Assembly: GCF_019263585.2 (NCBI RefSeq)
Contig: NZ_JADQDF010000001.1
Location: 2,976,001 to 3,040,000, forward strand
Direction of reading: 5' to 3'
Origin: Pseudonocardia oceani
Lineage (GTDB): Bacteria > Actinomycetota > Actinomycetes > Mycobacteriales > Pseudonocardiaceae
Length of the DNA: 64,000 nucleotides
A program made the translations under genes and the position numbers. This document shows, one piece after another, positions 8,170 to 62,976 of the stretch. Every line of letters starts with the position of its first letter. Position 1 is the stretch's first letter. The notes below the pieces were generated by a model, which saw nothing but the letters and a program-made list of their open reading frames with translations, did not search any database and was not told where the DNA came from.

Positions 8170-9161
8170 GAGGCTGCTGGACCGGCCCAGCGACGGCTCC
8201 GGCTCGGCGTCGGAGATCGGCGCGAAGATCTGCGTGATCTCGTCCGACGTCGGCGGCGGGGCGTAGCGGGGACGGATCGTGGTGGTCGGCGGGTCGGTCG
8301 GTGGACCGCCGCCGGGACGCCGCGAGGCGGCCCACGGGGGCGGGACGCCGGGCAGGGCGGGGGTCGGTCCGGGCGGGCGGCCCGGCCCGCGGCCCTGTGC
8401 GCCGGGGTCGTGGCCGCGTGGGTCGTGGCCGCGTGGATCGGGGCCGCGGGGATCAGGACCGGGACGGCGGATGCCCGGCGGGCCGGGGCGGCGCGGGTCA
8501 CCGGGACCGGCGGGCGGGGCGCCGGGGGGTCGCAGAGGTGCGCCGGGGCGCGACGGTCCCTGACCGGGTCCGGGCGGGGCGGATGCGGGGTGGCCGGAGC
8601 CGGACCGGCCGGGACCGGGATGCGGCGGTGCGGGCGGGTGCGGGGCGCCGTGCTGCGGACCGGCAGGCCCTGCCTGGGCGGGAGGCCCTGCCTGGGCAGG
8701 AGGGCCCGCCTGGCCGGGCGGTCCCTGCTGCGGACGGAAGAGGGGACGGGCGTGCGGGGACCCGGCGGGGGGCGGACCCCCCGGCCGGCCGGCCTGCGGC
8801 GGCGGGCCACCCTGCGGCGGCCCACCCTGCGACGGCTGTCCGCCCTGCGACGGCTGTCCGCCCTGCGGGTACGGCCGGCCGAATGGCGGGGGTCCGGAGG
8901 TCTGCGGGGGTCCGGGCGGCGGGCCGGCGCGTCGCTCACCACCGGGCGCGGGAGCGGCCGGTGGCGGCCCGGACCGGCCGGACGGCGGCGGGCCGGGGTG
9001 CTCGGCGTCGTGCGGGCCCTCGTGCGCCCCGTCGTGCGCGGACGCGCGAGCGTCCCCGGCCGGGGTGCCGGGAGCGGGCGCGTCGGGACCGTCGGCCCGG
9101 GGGGCCGCGACGCCGGGGTGCCGGGAGTCGGGGTGCGCTTCCCCGCCCGGGCCGCGGGGCT
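8170..9161 (-). other. Open, Pro/Gly/Gln-rich frame upstream of murJ, no standard start codon
   Basis: This 992-base gap between the DUF6049 gene and the murJ ATG stays open in the murJ frame. It would encode a low-complexity tail with repeats such as QGGQPS, QAGPPA and DPRGPDPRG, then a more ordinary segment (RPRYAPPPTSDEITQIF) just before helix 1. I found no in-frame ATG or GTG anywhere from 9161 down to 8170. It could be a real cytoplasmic extension with an unusual start, a frameshifted gene, or a non-coding GC-rich spacer. Confidence 0.5.
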
Positions 9162-31404: not shown

Positions 31405-31470
31405 GTGATCGTCGGAAGTGTGACGTGGAGGTCCCGGTGGGGGCCGCGGTGGCGCGGTCTCGGTGATCAC
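31405..31470. repeat. 66-base palindromic repeat, isolated copy A
   Basis: Starts GTGATCGTCGGAAGTGTGAC and ends CGGTGATCAC. It has the same length and left arm as the copies clustered at 60.8-61.3 kb. The right arm is more diverged. Confidence 0.7.
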
Positions 31471-31624: not shown

Positions 31625-31688
31625 GTGATCGCCGGGAGTGCGACGTGGGGGTCGCTGTGGGGACCTGGTGGCACGGTCCCGGTGATCA
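31625..31688. repeat. 66-base palindromic repeat family, isolated copy B
   Basis: Starts GTGATCGCCGGGAGTGCGAC and ends CCCGGTGATCA. It is a near-full-length copy about 150 bases after copy A in the same orientation. Confidence 0.65.
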
Positions 31689-31817
31689 ACCCCGACCGGC
31701 GGCCCGGGTCGAGCCGGTGCCGCCCACCCCGCGCTCCGGTCGTTCCCCCACTGCGCACCTCCTGGCGTCCCGCGCAGGTGCGCGGCCCGCCGGCGGGTGC
31801 GCGAGCCCGACGGTGCG

Positions 31818-45798: not shown

Positions 45799-45818
45799 TC
45801 GGGATGCGCTTCGCACCC

Positions 45819-45858
45819 GTGAGCGCCAACCGTCGCCAGGACCACGTTCGCCACTCAC
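45819..45858. repeat. Diverged GTGAGTGG-family palindrome
   Basis: Left GTGAGCGCCAAC (45819-45830) and right GTTCGCCACTCAC (45846-45858) form an imperfect inverted repeat. Unlike its relatives, it lies between two divergent genes, so it is not an obvious terminator. Confidence 0.5.
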
Positions 45859-45925
45859 GAGCGCGTCAGCGCAGGCGGGGTCGTGACCGTCGTCGCCGCT
45901 CCCGTCGCCGGGAGCTCCCACTCGC

Positions 45926-45938: not shown

Positions 45939-46727
45939 GTGGCCTCCTCGCGACGACTCCGCGCCCTGATCACCAACGACGACGGCATCGACTCGCCCGG
46001 GCTGTGGGCGTTGGCCGCGTCCGCGCGGGACGCGGGGTTCGAGGTCGTCGTGGCGGCGCCGCACGTCGACGCGAGCGGGGTCGGGGCGTCGGTGCTGTCG
46101 GTGCGGGAGGACGGCCGGGTACGGCTGCACGGGCGCGAACTCCCCGGCCTCGACGGTGTGCCGGCGTTCGCGGTGGAGGGGCACCCGGCGTTCATCGTCA
46201 CCTCCGCGGGCCGCGGCTGGCTCGACCCCGAGCCCGACGTCGTGCTGTCGGGCATCAACCTCGGCGCCAACACCGGGCACGCGGTGCTGCACTCGGGGAC
46301 GGTCGGCGCGGCGCTGGCTGCCGGGCTGCAGGGCAGGCGGGCGCTCGCCGTCTCGCTCGACACCGGCTGGAACCCGCCCGAGCAGCCGCACTGGGAGGCG
46401 GCCGCGCACGTGCTGCCCGAGGTGCTCGACCTGCTGCTCGGCACCGACGACGGCACCGTGCTCAACCTCAACGTGCCCGACGTCGCCCCCGCCGGGCTCG
46501 GGCCGCTGCGGGAGGCGCGCCTCGCCCCGTTCGGCACCGTGCAGGTGCGGATCGCGCAGCGCACGACCGAGAGCTCCGAAGGTCTGCACATGACCTGGGA
46601 CGAGCGGGCCGAGCCGCCGGAGCCGGGCACCGACACCGCACTCCTGCGCGCGGGGCACCCGACGCTGACGCGGCTCGTGTCGGTCGGCGAGCGGCCCGGC
46701 GTCCTGGGCGGCGTCCCGACGTCGTGA
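45939..46727 (+). CDS. surE: 5'-nucleotidase SurE
   Basis: A 262-residue metal-dependent nucleoside-5'-monophosphatase, a survival protein in stationary phase. The metal-binding start RALITNDDGIDSPGL and SGINLGANTG are intact; the GTVGAALAAGLQG helix and NLNVPD are also typical. The length is normal. The stop codon is embedded in the left arm of a perfect 14-base hairpin. Confidence 0.94.
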   Translation: MASSRRLRALITNDDGIDSPGLWALAASARDAGFEVVVAAPHVDASGVGASVLSVREDGRVRLHGRELPGLDGVPAFAVEGHPAFIVTSAGRGWLDPEPDVVLSGINLGANTGHAVLHSGTVGAALAAGLQGRRALAVSLDTGWNPPEQPHWEAAAHVLPEVLDLLLGTDDGTVLNLNVPDVAPAGLGPLREARLAPFGTVQVRIAQRTTESSEGLHMTWDERAEPPEPGTDTALLRAGHPTLTRLVSVGERPGVLGGVPTS

Positions 46728-46763
46728 GTGGCAACCGTTGCTCTGACACCGGTTGCCACTCAC
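46724..46763. terminator. Perfect GTGAGTGG-family hairpin at the surE stop
   Basis: Arms GTGAGTGGCAACCG (46724-46737) and CGGTTGCCACTCAC (46750-46763) pair perfectly around a 12-base loop. The surE TGA lies inside the left arm. It is a likely terminator and the best-conserved member of a small repeat family in this window. Confidence 0.7.
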
Positions 46764-46811
46764 GGGCACCCCGGTGCAGGTGTGATTCGGATCACCGGTC
46801 ACCATCTCTCC

Positions 46812-58426: not shown

Positions 58427-60358
58427 TCAGACCGAGGCGTGCTCCCGCCGGTGGCTGGGCGCGGGCGCGGGCCAGCCGGGCCGCACCAGCAGGCGCAGCC
58501 CGTTGAGGCAGACCAGCACGGTGGAGAGCTCGTGCCCGGCCACCCCGATCGCCAGGGGCAGGGTCGCGACCAGGTCCCAGGTGACCAGCACGACGATCAC
58601 GGCCGCGGCGAACGCCAGGTTGGCCCGGGCGATCCGCTGCGCGCGGCGGGCCAGCGCCAGCAGCGGCGGCAGGGAGCCGAGGGGGTCGCGCAGCAGCACG
58701 CCGTCGGAGGCCTGCACCGCGAGCGCCCCCGCGCCCTCCCCGACGGCCAGCCCGGCGTCGGCCGTGGCGAGCAGCGGGGCGTCGTTGATGCCGTCGCCGA
58801 CCGCGAGCACCCGCCGCCCGCCGCCCTGCCACTGCGCCACGACGGCGGCCTTGCCCTCGGGCAGCAGGCCGGCGCGCACGTCGTCGACGCCCAGCTCGCG
58901 GCCGATGCGCGCGGCCGGCGCCGGGGCGTCGCCGGTGAGCAGGACGGGCGGGGTGCCGACGGTGGCGGTCAGCGCCGCGAGGGCGTCGGCGGCGCCGGGG
59001 CGCAGGGCGTCGGCCAGGGCCAGCACGCCGGCCGGTTCGCCGCCGACCAGCACGACGACGGTGGTCCGCCCGGCGTCCTCGTGGCGGGTGACCGCGGCGC
59101 GGGCCCCGGCGTGGCCGCTCCCGTCCAGCAGCGACGGACGCCCGACGACGACCTCCACCCCGGAGACGACCGCCCGTACCCCGACGCCGGGCAGCGCGTC
59201 GAACGCGGCGGCGGCGGGGACCCGCAGGTGGGCCGCGGCTTCGCGGACGGCGCGGCCGAGCACGTGCTCGCTGCCGGACTCGGCCGCGGCGGCCAGCGCC
59301 AGCACCCCGTCGCGCCCGCCGTCCCCCGCGAGCCGGGCCGTGGTGGCGACCGTGTCGGGGTGGCCGAGCGCCTCCACCGCCACCAGCTCGGGGCGCCCGC
59401 GGGTGACGGTGCCGGTCTTGTCCAGCGCCACGGCGTCGACGACGGCCAGCGCCTCGACCACGGTGGCGTCGCGCAGCAGCACGCCGCGCCGACCGGCCAC
59501 CGCGATCGCGGCGAGCAGCGGCGGCATGGTCGCGAGCACGACCGCGCACGGCGAGGCGACGATCATGAACGTCATCGCGCGCAGCAGCGTCGGCTCGAAC
59601 TCCGCGCCGAACAGGAGCGGCCCGCCCAGCAGCGCCAGCGCCCCGGCGACGACGGCCACCGAGTACCGCTGCTCGATGCGCTCGATCCACAGCTGCCGCC
59701 CGGCCTTGGTCTCCGTGGCCCGCTCGACCTGCGCGGCGATGCCGGCGACGACCGAGTCGGCCGGGTCGCGCTCGACGCGGACCCGCAGCGTGCCGGTGCC
59801 GTTGACGGTGCCGGCGTGCACGTCGTCGCCGGTGGCGCGGGGCACCGGCACGGGCTCGCCCGTCAGCCCGGCGGTGTCGACGTCGCTCGCACCGCCGACC
59901 ACGCGTCCGTCGGCGGGGATCTTCTCCCCGGGCCGCACGACGACCTCGTCGCCGACGGTGAGCGCGTCGGCCCGGACGACGCGCTCGGAGTCCGCGAGCG
60001 TCGCCGTCTCGGGGGCGAGGTCGAGCAGGGTGTGGATGCTGCGCTCGGTGCGCGCGGTCATCACGGCCTCCAGCGCGCCGGAGCTCGCGAAGATCACGAT
60101 GAGCAGGCCGCCGTCGAGGGGCTGGCCGATCGCGGCGGCGGCGAGGGCGGCCACGACCATGAGCAGGTCGACGTCCAGGCGCCGCTCGCCCAGCGCCCGC
60201 ACGCCCTCGACCAGCGGTTCCCAGCCGCCCGCGAGGTAGCAGACCGCGTAGAGCGCGACGACCGCGGCGCCCGGCGCCCCGAGCAGGTCGGCGGGCACGG
60301 CCAGCGCGAACGCGGCGAGGGAGAGCAGGGCCCAGCGGACCTCGGGCATCGACCACAT
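58427..60358 (-). CDS. P1B-type metal-transporting ATPase (SPC type)
   Basis: A 643-residue heavy-metal ATPase with about eight helices and no N-terminal metal-binding domain. It has the phosphorylation motif DKTGTVT, the TGEPVPV actuator loop, [10 protein letters not shown], and in helix 6 [12 protein letters not shown] rather than CPC. SPC in helix 6 with a HExxT-like element in helix 8 (GHELSTVLV) fits the P1B-4 group (Co/Fe/Ni-type). ATG at 60358 is favoured by TATGGT seven bases upstream; 60370 is in frame. Paired with a divergent ArsR regulator. Confidence 0.92.
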
Positions 60359-60450: not shown

Positions 60451-60774
60451 GTGCACGACGGCATCCCCGGCTTCGCGATGCCGCACGCCGACGACGTCCG
60501 GCGGGCGGCCGACTCGCTGCGCCTGCTCGCCGACCCCACCCGCATCAAGATCCTCTGGGCCCTGCTGCACGGCGAGGAGTCGGTGGCGTGCCTGGCCGAC
60601 CTCGTCGGCGCCAGCCCCACCGCGGTGAGCCAGCACTTGGCCAAGCTGCGGCTCGCGGGCCTGGTCGAGGGCCGGCGCGAGGGCACCTTCATCTACTACT
60701 CGGCGGGTGACGGGGTGCGTGGGGTGCTGGCCGAGGCTCTGCGGCTCGGCCAGCCGGCGGCGGTGCAGCGGTAG
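60451..60774 (+). CDS. ArsR/SmtB family metalloregulator
   Basis: A 107-residue winged-helix repressor. RLLADPTRIKILWALLHGEESVACLADLVGASPTAVSQHLAKLRLAGLV is the ArsR DNA-binding core. A single Cys in the SVACLADL helix (ELCVCDL position) and N-terminal His residues (HDG, PHADD) may bind metal, as in NmtR/CzrA-like sensors. It probably represses itself and the divergent ATPase until metal binds. Confidence 0.92.
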   Translation: MHDGIPGFAMPHADDVRRAADSLRLLADPTRIKILWALLHGEESVACLADLVGASPTAVSQHLAKLRLAGLVEGRREGTFIYYSAGDGVRGVLAEALRLGQPAAVQR

Positions 60775-60813: not shown

Positions 60814-61310
60814 GTGATCGTCGGAAATGTGGCGTGAGGGTCGCGCGGAGGGCCGTGGTGGTGTGGTCCCGCCGATCACCAGCGCTGGTCGGGTCGGTGA
60901 TCGCCGGGAGTGTGACGTCCCGGCCCCCGCCGCGACCGTGAGTGCGCACTCCCGAGGATCACTGCGCTGGCTCGGGTCGGAGCGGCGGGGAGGGTGACGT
61001 CTTGGCCCTCCGCGCGACGGTGGCGGCGCACTTCCGACGATCACCGCGCTCGGTCGGGTCGGGAGCGGCGGGGAAGGTGACGTCCCGGCCCTCCGGGCGA
61101 CCGCGGGGGTGCACTGCCGACGATCATGCTGCAGGTTCTCAGCCTCGGTGTGCCGCCGGGCCGGTCGCAGCGGCAGCCAGTCCCCCTCCGCCGACGGCCT
61201 CCGGAGGTGGGTCGGTGATCGACGAGTGTGTGCCGTGAGGGCGGCCGGACGGCCGTGGTGTGACGTCCCGGCCCTCCGCGCGACCGTGGTGGCGCACTCC
61301 CGGCGATCAC
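60814..61310. repeat. Cluster of 66-base palindromic repeats
   Basis: Copies lie at 60814-60879, 60897-60962, 60979-61044, 61062-61127 and a composite 61215-61310. The first four are each exactly 66 bases, with similar 16-17-base linkers, giving a period of about 83 bases. The best arms are GTGATCGCCGGGAGTG and CACTCCCGGCGATCAC. The first copy is inverted relative to the others. This 546-base gap has no supported gene. Confidence 0.85.
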
Positions 61311-61320
61311 GTCGTCCGGC

Positions 61321-62976
61321 TCAGCCCGCCTGCTTCACCGCCAGCTCCGCGACGGCCTGGCGGGCGGCGGCCGGGTCGGCGGCGGCGCAGGCGGCCTCCG
61401 CGCGCTCGCGGCAGTCCTCCAGGCTCGCGCCGGCGAGCGAGGCCCCGACGGCGGCCAGCGCGCCGGCGCCCATCGACAGCGTCGCCATCCCGAGCCCGAC
61501 CAGCACCGGGGCGAGGGCGGGGTCGGCGGCGGCCTCACCGCACACCCCGACCGGCGTGCCGGTGGCGGCCGAGGCCTCGCCGAGCAGGCGGAGCAGGCGC
61601 AGGAGGGCGGGCTGCCAGGGGTCGTTGAGGGCCGCGACCGGGCCGGACTGGCGGTCGGCGGCGAACAGGTACTGGGCCAGGTCGTTGGTGCCGACGCTGG
61701 CGAAGTCGACCTCGGCGAGCACCTCGTGGGCGGTCAGGACGGCCGCGGGGACCTCGATCATCACTCCGGCCGAGCGGATGCCGTGCTCCCGGCAGCGCGC
61801 GACGAACCAGCGGGCCTCCTCCGCGGTGGCGACCATCGGGGCCATCACCTTGAGCTCGGCGCCGGTCTCGGCGGCCGCGGCGGCGAGCGTCGCGAGCTGG
61901 CGGTCGAGCACGTCGGAGCCGGGGCCGGGCACGCGCGCCACGCGCAGCCCGCGCACACCCAGCGCCGGGTTCGGCTCGCCGTCGAGGGTGAGGAACGGGA
62001 GGGGCTTGTCGGCGCCCGCGTCGAGCGTGCGCGCGGTGACCGGCAGACCGGCGAACGCGGCCAGCACCCCCGCGTAGACCTCGTGCTGGCGCGCGACCGA
62101 CGGCTCCTCGGCCGCGGAGAGGAACGCGAGCTCGGTCCGGAACAGCCCGACACCCTGCGCGCGCAGCCCGGCCGCCGTGACCGCCCCCTTCGCCTCGCCG
62201 ACGTTGGCCAGCAGCGGCACCCCGTGCCCGTCGGACGTGCGCCCGACGCCGTCCCACTCAGCCGCGACGACGGCGCCGTTCTCCTGCTCGACCACCTCGG
62301 TCACCTCCTGCACCACGCCCGTCGCCCCGTCGACGACGACCGCGGCGCCCTCGGCGATCGAGGTGGCGCCCGCGCAGCCGACGACCGCGGGGATGCCGAG
62401 CGAGCGGGCCAGGATCGCGGTGTGGCTGGTCGGGCCGCCCTGCTCGGTGACCAGCGCCAGCGCGATGCCGGGGCGCAGGCCCGCGGTGTCGGCCGGGGCG
62501 AGGTCGGCGGCGACGAGGACGCACGGGGCGTCGAGGTCGGCGACGCCCGGCGCGGGCAGGCCGAGGAGCTCGGCGACGATCCGGTCGCGCACGTCGTGGA
62601 TGTCGCGGGCGCGCTCGGCCATGTAGCCGCCCATGCCGGTGAGCAGGTCGGCGAACGCGCCGGCCGCCTCGTACACAGCGCGGGCGGCGGGGCGCCCGCC
62701 GCCGGTGACCAGGTCGCGGGCGTAGTCGAGGAGGGCGGGGTCGGTGACCATCGCGACGGTCGCCTCCAGCACGTCCCGTGCGTCGCCCGTGACCGTGGCC
62801 GCGCGGGCCTCCAGGCGGGCGGCGACGACGGCGACGGCCGGGGCGATGCGCGCCGCCTCCGCCGCCGGGTCCAGCGGCGCCGGGCCCACCGGGGGCTCGC
62901 CGGGCGCGTCGGCGACCCGGACCACCCGTCCGCTCGCACGCCCGCTGCTCGCCGGGATCCCGCTCAGTGTCCGCAT
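61321..62976 (-). CDS. ptsI: PTS enzyme I (phosphoenolpyruvate-protein phosphotransferase)
   Basis: A 551-residue enzyme that passes phosphate from PEP to HPr, feeding sugar import. The phosphorylated His is in EQGGPTSHTAILAR; the PEP-binding domain has GLFRTELAFL, VMAPMVAT, GVMIEVPAAVL, VGTNDLAQYLFAADR and the C-terminal CGEAAADPA. The ATG at 62976 has GGAG six bases upstream. Divergent from a DeoR regulator and fruK, so it is part of a fructose PTS locus. Length is normal. Confidence 0.95.
   Translation of the reverse strand: MRTLSGIPASSGRASGRVVRVADAPGEPPVGPAPLDPAAEAARIAPAVAVVAARLEARAATVTGDARDVLEATVAMVTDPALLDYARDLVTGGGRPAARAVYEAAGAFADLLTGMGGYMAERARDIHDVRDRIVAELLGLPAPGVADLDAPCVLVAADLAPADTAGLRPGIALALVTEQGGPTSHTAILARSLGIPAVVGCAGATSIAEGAAVVVDGATGVVQEVTEVVEQENGAVVAAEWDGVGRTSDGHGVPLLANVGEAKGAVTAAGLRAQGVGLFRTELAFLSAAEEPSVARQHEVYAGVLAAFAGLPVTARTLDAGADKPLPFLTLDGEPNPALGVRGLRVARVPGPGSDVLDRQLATLAAAAAETGAELKVMAPMVATAEEARWFVARCREHGIRSAGVMIEVPAAVLTAHEVLAEVDFASVGTNDLAQYLFAADRQSGPVAALNDPWQPALLRLLRLLGEASAATGTPVGVCGEAAADPALAPVLVGLGMATLSMGAGALAAVGASLAGASLEDCRERAEAACAAADPAAARQAVAELAVKQAG

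Follow-up and report, generated by a model that had tools for sequence, protein, structure and literature searches.

A dispersed family of 66-base palindromes in Pseudonocardia, often arrayed in steps of about ten bases and mostly oriented along replication

Why should several 66-base palindromes stand in a row, at nearly constant spacing, between two genes of Pseudonocardia oceani? The window analysed here is a stretch of 64,000 nucleotides (contig NZ_JADQDF010000001.1, positions 2,976,001 to 3,040,000), and an initial annotation of its sequence described four consecutive units at 60814–61310 followed by a composite fifth copy. We confirm both: the four units are exactly 66 bases each, with linkers of 16–17 bases and a period of 82–83 bases, and the fifth copy is indeed composite. 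The total of seven copies given for the window also stands, two of them lying outside the array (Table 1). Of the four array units, only 1 and 2 have both of the ends, GTGATC and GATCAC, ascribed to the arms. Similarly, the inner core of the copy at 60814 is truly inverted, as had been described, but its arms share the model orientation with the other copies. The hairpins were weaker than claimed: folded as single-stranded DNA, two of the six window copies tested reach z < −3, and the remaining four lie between −1.48 and −0.06. The pattern GTGATC-N50-60-GATCAC occurs three times in the window, twice within the array, whereas 100 shuffled versions average 0.00 occurrences.

The genes on either side, an ArsR-family gene and a ptsI-like gene, form a convergent pair, and 10 bases separate the end of the composite fifth unit from the end of the ptsI gene. 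A terminator scan returned 0 sites, which says little, given that shuffles also return 0.0. Between positions 60300 and 61600, no Rfam covariance model matched at E ≤ 1. A second palindromic family, of the GTGAGC...GCCACTCACGA type, flanks one gene elsewhere in the window (45816–45860 and 46722–46766), and palindromes of this type are also interspersed with 66-mers in a block at the same place in the close relative G072 (L182:8467–8537 and 8778–8848).

Table 1. Features of the window, and blocks of copies present in G072 and absent from P. oceani (window positions, or locus of the block)
Feature	Position	Strand	Remark
Dispersed copy, 66 bases	31405..31470	+	
Dispersed copy, 65 bases	31625..31689	+	
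ArsR-family regulator gene (PF01022)	60451..60774	+	directed towards array
Unit 1, 66 bases, GTGATC...GATCAC	60814..60879	+	inner core inverted relative to units 2–4
Linker, 17 bases	60880..60896	+	
Unit 2, 66 bases, GTGATC...GATCAC	60897..60962	+	best folder among the four array units
Unit 3, 66 bases	about 60979..61044	+	degenerate left end GGAGCG
Unit 4, 66 bases	61062..61127	+	degenerate left end GGAGCG; right end GATCAT
Composite fifth copy	61215..61310	+	clear profile match 61258–61309, weak match before
Enzyme I (ptsI)-like gene, three PEP-utilising-enzyme domains	61321..62925	-	directed towards array; start codon uncertain
848-base G072 block, 7 copies	45800..45801	.	absent from P. oceani
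894-base G072 block, 4 copies	L248		absent from P. oceani
642-base G072 block, 6 copies	L242		absent from P. oceani
461-base G072 block, 4 copies	L244		absent from P. oceani

That the host genome might hold no further copies, which would have spoken against a repeat family, is excluded by a covariance-model search. The model was built from a 39-copy alignment having just three single-base gaps, and it returned at least 145 rows over both strands of the P. oceani genome, with 150 candidates scored; BLAST with the array had given 60 rows, a figure that counts both strands and the query array. When the 48 chromosomal stretches around the model rows were searched with a profile, they resolved into 86 distinct copies (84 in later runs using a larger search set). 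This count looks near complete, since 26 more stretches of the same genome, fetched for other reasons, held no new copy, the one extra hit being a known place. In G072, whose ptsI protein is 97% identical to that of P. oceani, there are at least 150 model rows and at least 322 copies, 286 of them in 54 stretches and the remainder from 20 stretches matched to P. oceani places; the true number is probably higher.

Beyond this pair, the genomes nearest by ptsI are G005, with 13 model rows, and G007, with 1. At E ≤ 0.001, 26 of 36 genus members (P. oceani included) have a match, which in several is a single weak one; outside the genus, 5 of 24 genomes have one match each at this threshold. Across the order, 4 of 249 genomes match at E ≤ 1e-6, three of these within the genus. 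The family looks all but confined to the genus, and in some species it has undergone bursts. Given that we found no copy in the ptsI neighbourhood of G005 or G007, and that the other 10 of the 36 genus members gave no match at E ≤ 0.001, the function of the arrays, whatever its nature, is dispensable. Carriage by phages or plasmids was considered and rejected: 0 viral contigs have the exact pattern and the 526-base array is unmatched in phages and plasmids, records very near the window possibly being missing from both searches. A wider contig search gave a single hit, to a metagenome contig (60% G+C) that matches over 23 bases and has no full copy. A search of the open-access literature found no description of the family.

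Copies avoid genes almost entirely. By the calls of a simple, purpose-written codon-usage caller, 2 of 84 copies in P. oceani and 1 of 322 in G072 are centred in a gene. With the remaining gaps of 66 bases or more in the same fetched stretches as controls, gaps bearing copies are more often convergent (17 of 48 against 11 of 89 in P. oceani, p = 0.003; 26 of 67 against 26 of 233 in G072, p = 1e-6), the copy-bearing gaps being longer, partly owing to the copies themselves. Divergent gaps are depleted of copies in both genomes alike. Copies also lie nearer to the 3′ ends of genes than to their starts, with median distances of 90.5 and 164.5 bases in P. oceani (p = 0.003) and of 101.5 and 216 bases in G072 (p = 1e-4). 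At L189:2601–4021 in G072, tandem repeats resembling GGGCCGCCGGCTTCTC and GCCGCCGGCTCGGCTCCTCGCCCGGCCAGTCC share an intergenic block with 66-mers.

The length of the unit is nearly fixed: 49 of 58 near-full copies in P. oceani and 254 of 274 in G072 measure exactly 66 bases, while the rows of G005 are mostly of 64 bases. The family has terminal inverted repeats, GTGATC/GATCAC, and its arms have in common TGATC, followed by conserved positions occupied by C, A, G and C, and GGTC-8-GACC on the inside. The consensus sequences of the arms are unequal, one side reading GGGAGTGTGACGT and the other GAGACCGCACCACCACGG, so the palindrome has a direction. Several copies that end in GATCAA (L068, L185, L206, L208, L227, L272 and L279) are followed by a flank resembling GGGC-G-TGG, by which one subfamily may extend further outwards.

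Does this palindrome vary in the way a hairpin under selection would? Arms that vary without compensating changes had been named in advance as a finding against the initial annotation, and this is what we see, with no positive compensation in the stem. Double-change pairs number 5, against 9.5 in shuffles, and Watson–Crick pairing between the arms of a copy is 0.620, against a slightly higher 0.638 when arms are reshuffled between copies, in 101 thinned G072 copies, a test biased downwards by the orienting of each copy by its better strand. Such uncompensated variation speaks against a function as RNA or as a strict hairpin, but not against an element that acts as duplex DNA.

The spacing within the array proves to be one case of a more general rule. 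In P. oceani and G072 the distances between the centres of neighbouring copies peak at 72, 82, 92–93 and 108–114 bases, that is, in steps of about 10 bases; no distance falls at 75–80 or 85–88, and smaller groups lie off the peaks at 89–90 and 98–100. If each value is counted once for a given stretch (112 votes, 62 stretches), the power at periods of 9.8–10.8 bases is 51.6, a level that 5000 uniform draws never approach, their maximum being 11.6, the votes not being fully independent, since the two genomes share sites by descent and arrays contain duplicated units. Leaving out the 72 class (n = 70) reduces the power to 21.3, against at most 9.6 in uniform draws, and the best period is then 10.0, not 10.5. 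With a lenient threshold (E ≤ 0.5), other species of the genus give distances of 72 and 72 (G006), 83 (G009), 83 (G025), and 73, 112, 73 and 82, 80, 82, 79, 83, 80 (G018). Spacings that break the rule occur in G031 (63, 86, 101 and 105, alongside 94), at locus L171 (63, 101 and 105, alongside 94) and in G018 (79–80). Most neighbours no more than 100 bases apart have the same orientation, 19 of 20 in P. oceani and 131 of 149 in G072 being direct repeats. Many linkers within one spacing class look unrelated by eye and others repeat, with arrays L183, L193 and L225 having linkers common to their members.

Among the readings first proposed for the locus, that of a protein-binding array is the best supported, from the spacing steps and the uncompensated arms. 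Our preferred interpretation, to which we assign a probability of roughly 0.47, is that the 66-mers are BIME-like arrays of putative duplex-DNA docking sites, phased and laid out with replication. Each unit would be a docking site formed from two similar but unequal half-sites. Direct tandem spacing would keep adjacent sites turned to roughly one side of the helix, allowing the proteins bound there to touch, and the units would be arranged along the direction of replication. We infer that a host protein binds them, perhaps a wrapping or multimeric one such as gyrase or a nucleoid protein, and that the purpose of the arrays may lie in torsion or fork passage, a BIME-like role at places where converging transcription and replication cause torsion to build up. 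Docking arrays explain the spacing best. What the computation establishes is the family itself, its location, its spacing steps and polarity, the uncompensated arms and the differences in arrays from one species to the other. A bolder proposal, which we consider doubtful, is a genus-specific system of chromosome organisation, in which phased polar arrays on each replichore would be read by a candidate protein sensing fork or torsion direction and would have been amplified to hundreds in some species.

The strangest part of the family is its replication polarity. Placing the origin at dnaA and assuming the terminus to lie opposite, clusters are oriented with replication in 32 of 45 voting cases in P. 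oceani (48 clusters in all, p = 0.007) and in 48 of 63 in G072 (65 in all, p = 4e-5). The bias is strongest in convergent gaps, where copies with and against replication number 29:3 in P. oceani and 123:23 in G072; beside genes that oppose the fork it is weaker but persists (10:3 and 35:23). Gene direction for the most part has no bearing on the polarity of the element. On the fork-aligned strand G exceeds C and T exceeds A, and strand-biased mutation may contribute to the polarity observed. A pure C-to-T skew was rejected as its source, given that transversion-only diagnostics (three positions) still place clusters with replication at 28:9 in P. oceani and 44:18 in G072.

The two strands differ in folding too: with DNA energies the median z is −2.08 for the fork-aligned strand and −1.31 for its complement, which leaves mobility through a hairpin read on the lagging strand as the main rival to docking sites. 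The 66-mer would then be a non-autonomous REPIN-like or MITE-like element, copied via single-stranded DNA on the lagging-strand template, and the arrays would be repeated landings or rolling copies. We regard this as possible rather than probable. Constant ends and length agree with it, as do the polarity and the lineage-specific difference in rows between G005 and G072. In the 47 gaps that could be compared between P. oceani and G072 by hand (four repeat rows excluded, and only copies between aligned blocks counted), G072 has more copies in 40, equal numbers in 5 and fewer in 2, a sample that is not unbiased, since stretches were picked because one species had copies. A further hand count gives 10 of the 47 in which G072 has copies and the P. 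oceani stretch none at all, with 57 bases or fewer left in P. oceani at four of them (window 45800, L242, L244 and L248). The clean differences between the species are blocks of several copies, however, and none of the 47 gaps offers a clean empty site for a single copy. Furthermore, no direct repeats are evident by eye at the flanks of units, and the Y1 transposase domain PF01797 has no match in 12 of 12 copy-bearing genomes, several of them drafts; a control search for this domain gave matches in 5 of 14 named genomes. With no Y1 match and no clean single-copy empty site in these comparisons, the earlier suggestion that the units are moved by an unknown transposase is not borne out. The uncompensated arms also count against mobility, which gives no account of the spacing steps.

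A signal at the level of RNA, either a two-way terminator or a 3′-end stabiliser between genes, appears improbable. The bias towards gene 3′ ends and convergent gaps would suit such a signal, and so would the folding of 116 thinned copies as RNA, in which z < −2 is reached by 78% on the model strand and 60% on the other, although many copies fold better than shuffles simply as a palindrome would. Mispairs in co-directional gaps tell a different story. On the sense strand GU and AC are about balanced, at 94:72 in P. oceani and 346:360 in G072, and they track the orientation of the element rather than the direction of the gene, as expected of a duplex-DNA site and not of a selected transcribed hairpin. 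Taken with the lack of compensation in the arms, this balance indicates that it is in DNA, and not in RNA, that the pattern is maintained; the Rfam search of the array region and an orientation that tracks replication more than genes also count against a transcribed signal. Neutral satellite DNA, arising by slippage and unequal crossing-over and polarised by strand-biased mutation, is very improbable, for although copy number differs greatly at the same (selected) gaps, similar linkers recur inside an array and the fork-aligned strand is skewed, the spacing peaks hold across stretches whose linkers often look unrelated, transversions alone still track replication, and copies are nearly absent from genes and prefer convergent gaps.

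An IS481-type element of 1281 bases is present in two copies in G072, both inside 66-mers (L280, L281; L183:8236–9514); the assignment to IS481 is from Pfam domains and annotated IS481-family plasmid relatives of 33–34% identity, and a relative of the transposase at 65% is found in G073 (L298). The target duplications are of 26 and 28 bases, which seem long, and the duplicated bases span positions 21–46 and 20–47 of the 66-mer, exactly symmetric about its dyad. Given this symmetry in both insertions, the transposase appears to read the dyad; two cases are few, and we say only that they suggest it.

How, then, do the 66-mers compare with known repeat systems? MITEs are short, intergenic, of nearly fixed length and bounded by inverted ends. 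The 66-mers share these features but differ in having no target duplications by eye and no clean single-copy empty site. REPINs (PMC3116915) resemble the 66-mers in their two inverted arms per unit, many copies and amplification within a genome, but have a RAYT transposase, the Y1 domain of which is unmatched in the 12 genomes bearing 66-mers.

The closest likeness is to REP/BIME sequences, a class marked among other things by the binding of gyrase, IHF or DNA polymerase I, and as a resemblance the REP/BIME-like label of the initial annotation holds: the 66-mers are dispersed, extragenic, clustered, nearer to gene 3′ ends than to starts, and a target of an insertion sequence. In E. coli, Pseudomonas and Stenotrophomonas, REP/BIME are dispersed, extragenic, imperfect palindromes, often clustered and regularly spaced, variable in copy number between strains, and serving as protein binding sites and as targets of insertion sequences (PMC2817692 and PMC1525189); the 66-mers are likewise palindromic and present in many copies. 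IS1397, ISPpu9 and others target REPs; the G072 element lies in 66-mers in two of two copies, centred on the dyad. The families named as targeting REPs are IS3, IS110, IS4, IS256 and IS5, and IS481 is absent from that text (PMC1525189). The differences are equally plain. A REP unit is about 20–40 bases long and has a GTAG or CGTC tag at one of its ends (PMC3733652), whereas the unit here has 66 bases and GTGATC/GATCAC ends. BIME orientation alternates, whereas neighbouring 66-mers are mostly direct, and Stenotrophomonas REPs show signs of selection for complementary mutations (PMC2817692), which the 66-mers lack. REPs are further marked by a cognate RAYT in the genome; PF01797 is unmatched in all 12 of the genomes with 66-mers, some of them drafts, and we reject a RAYT-driven REP reading.

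REP-type repeats are usually ascribed to RAYT transposases, and here is a large palindrome family with no RAYT found in 12 genomes. Three of its properties are directly testable, namely the spacing steps of about 10 bases, the replication polarity and an IS481-type element that apparently reads the dyad, and two close species with 86 and more than 300 copies found provide a natural comparison. Our conclusion is that the 66-mers are BIME-like in behaviour and, by size, tag, alternation and RAYT, stand outside the REP/RAYT family.
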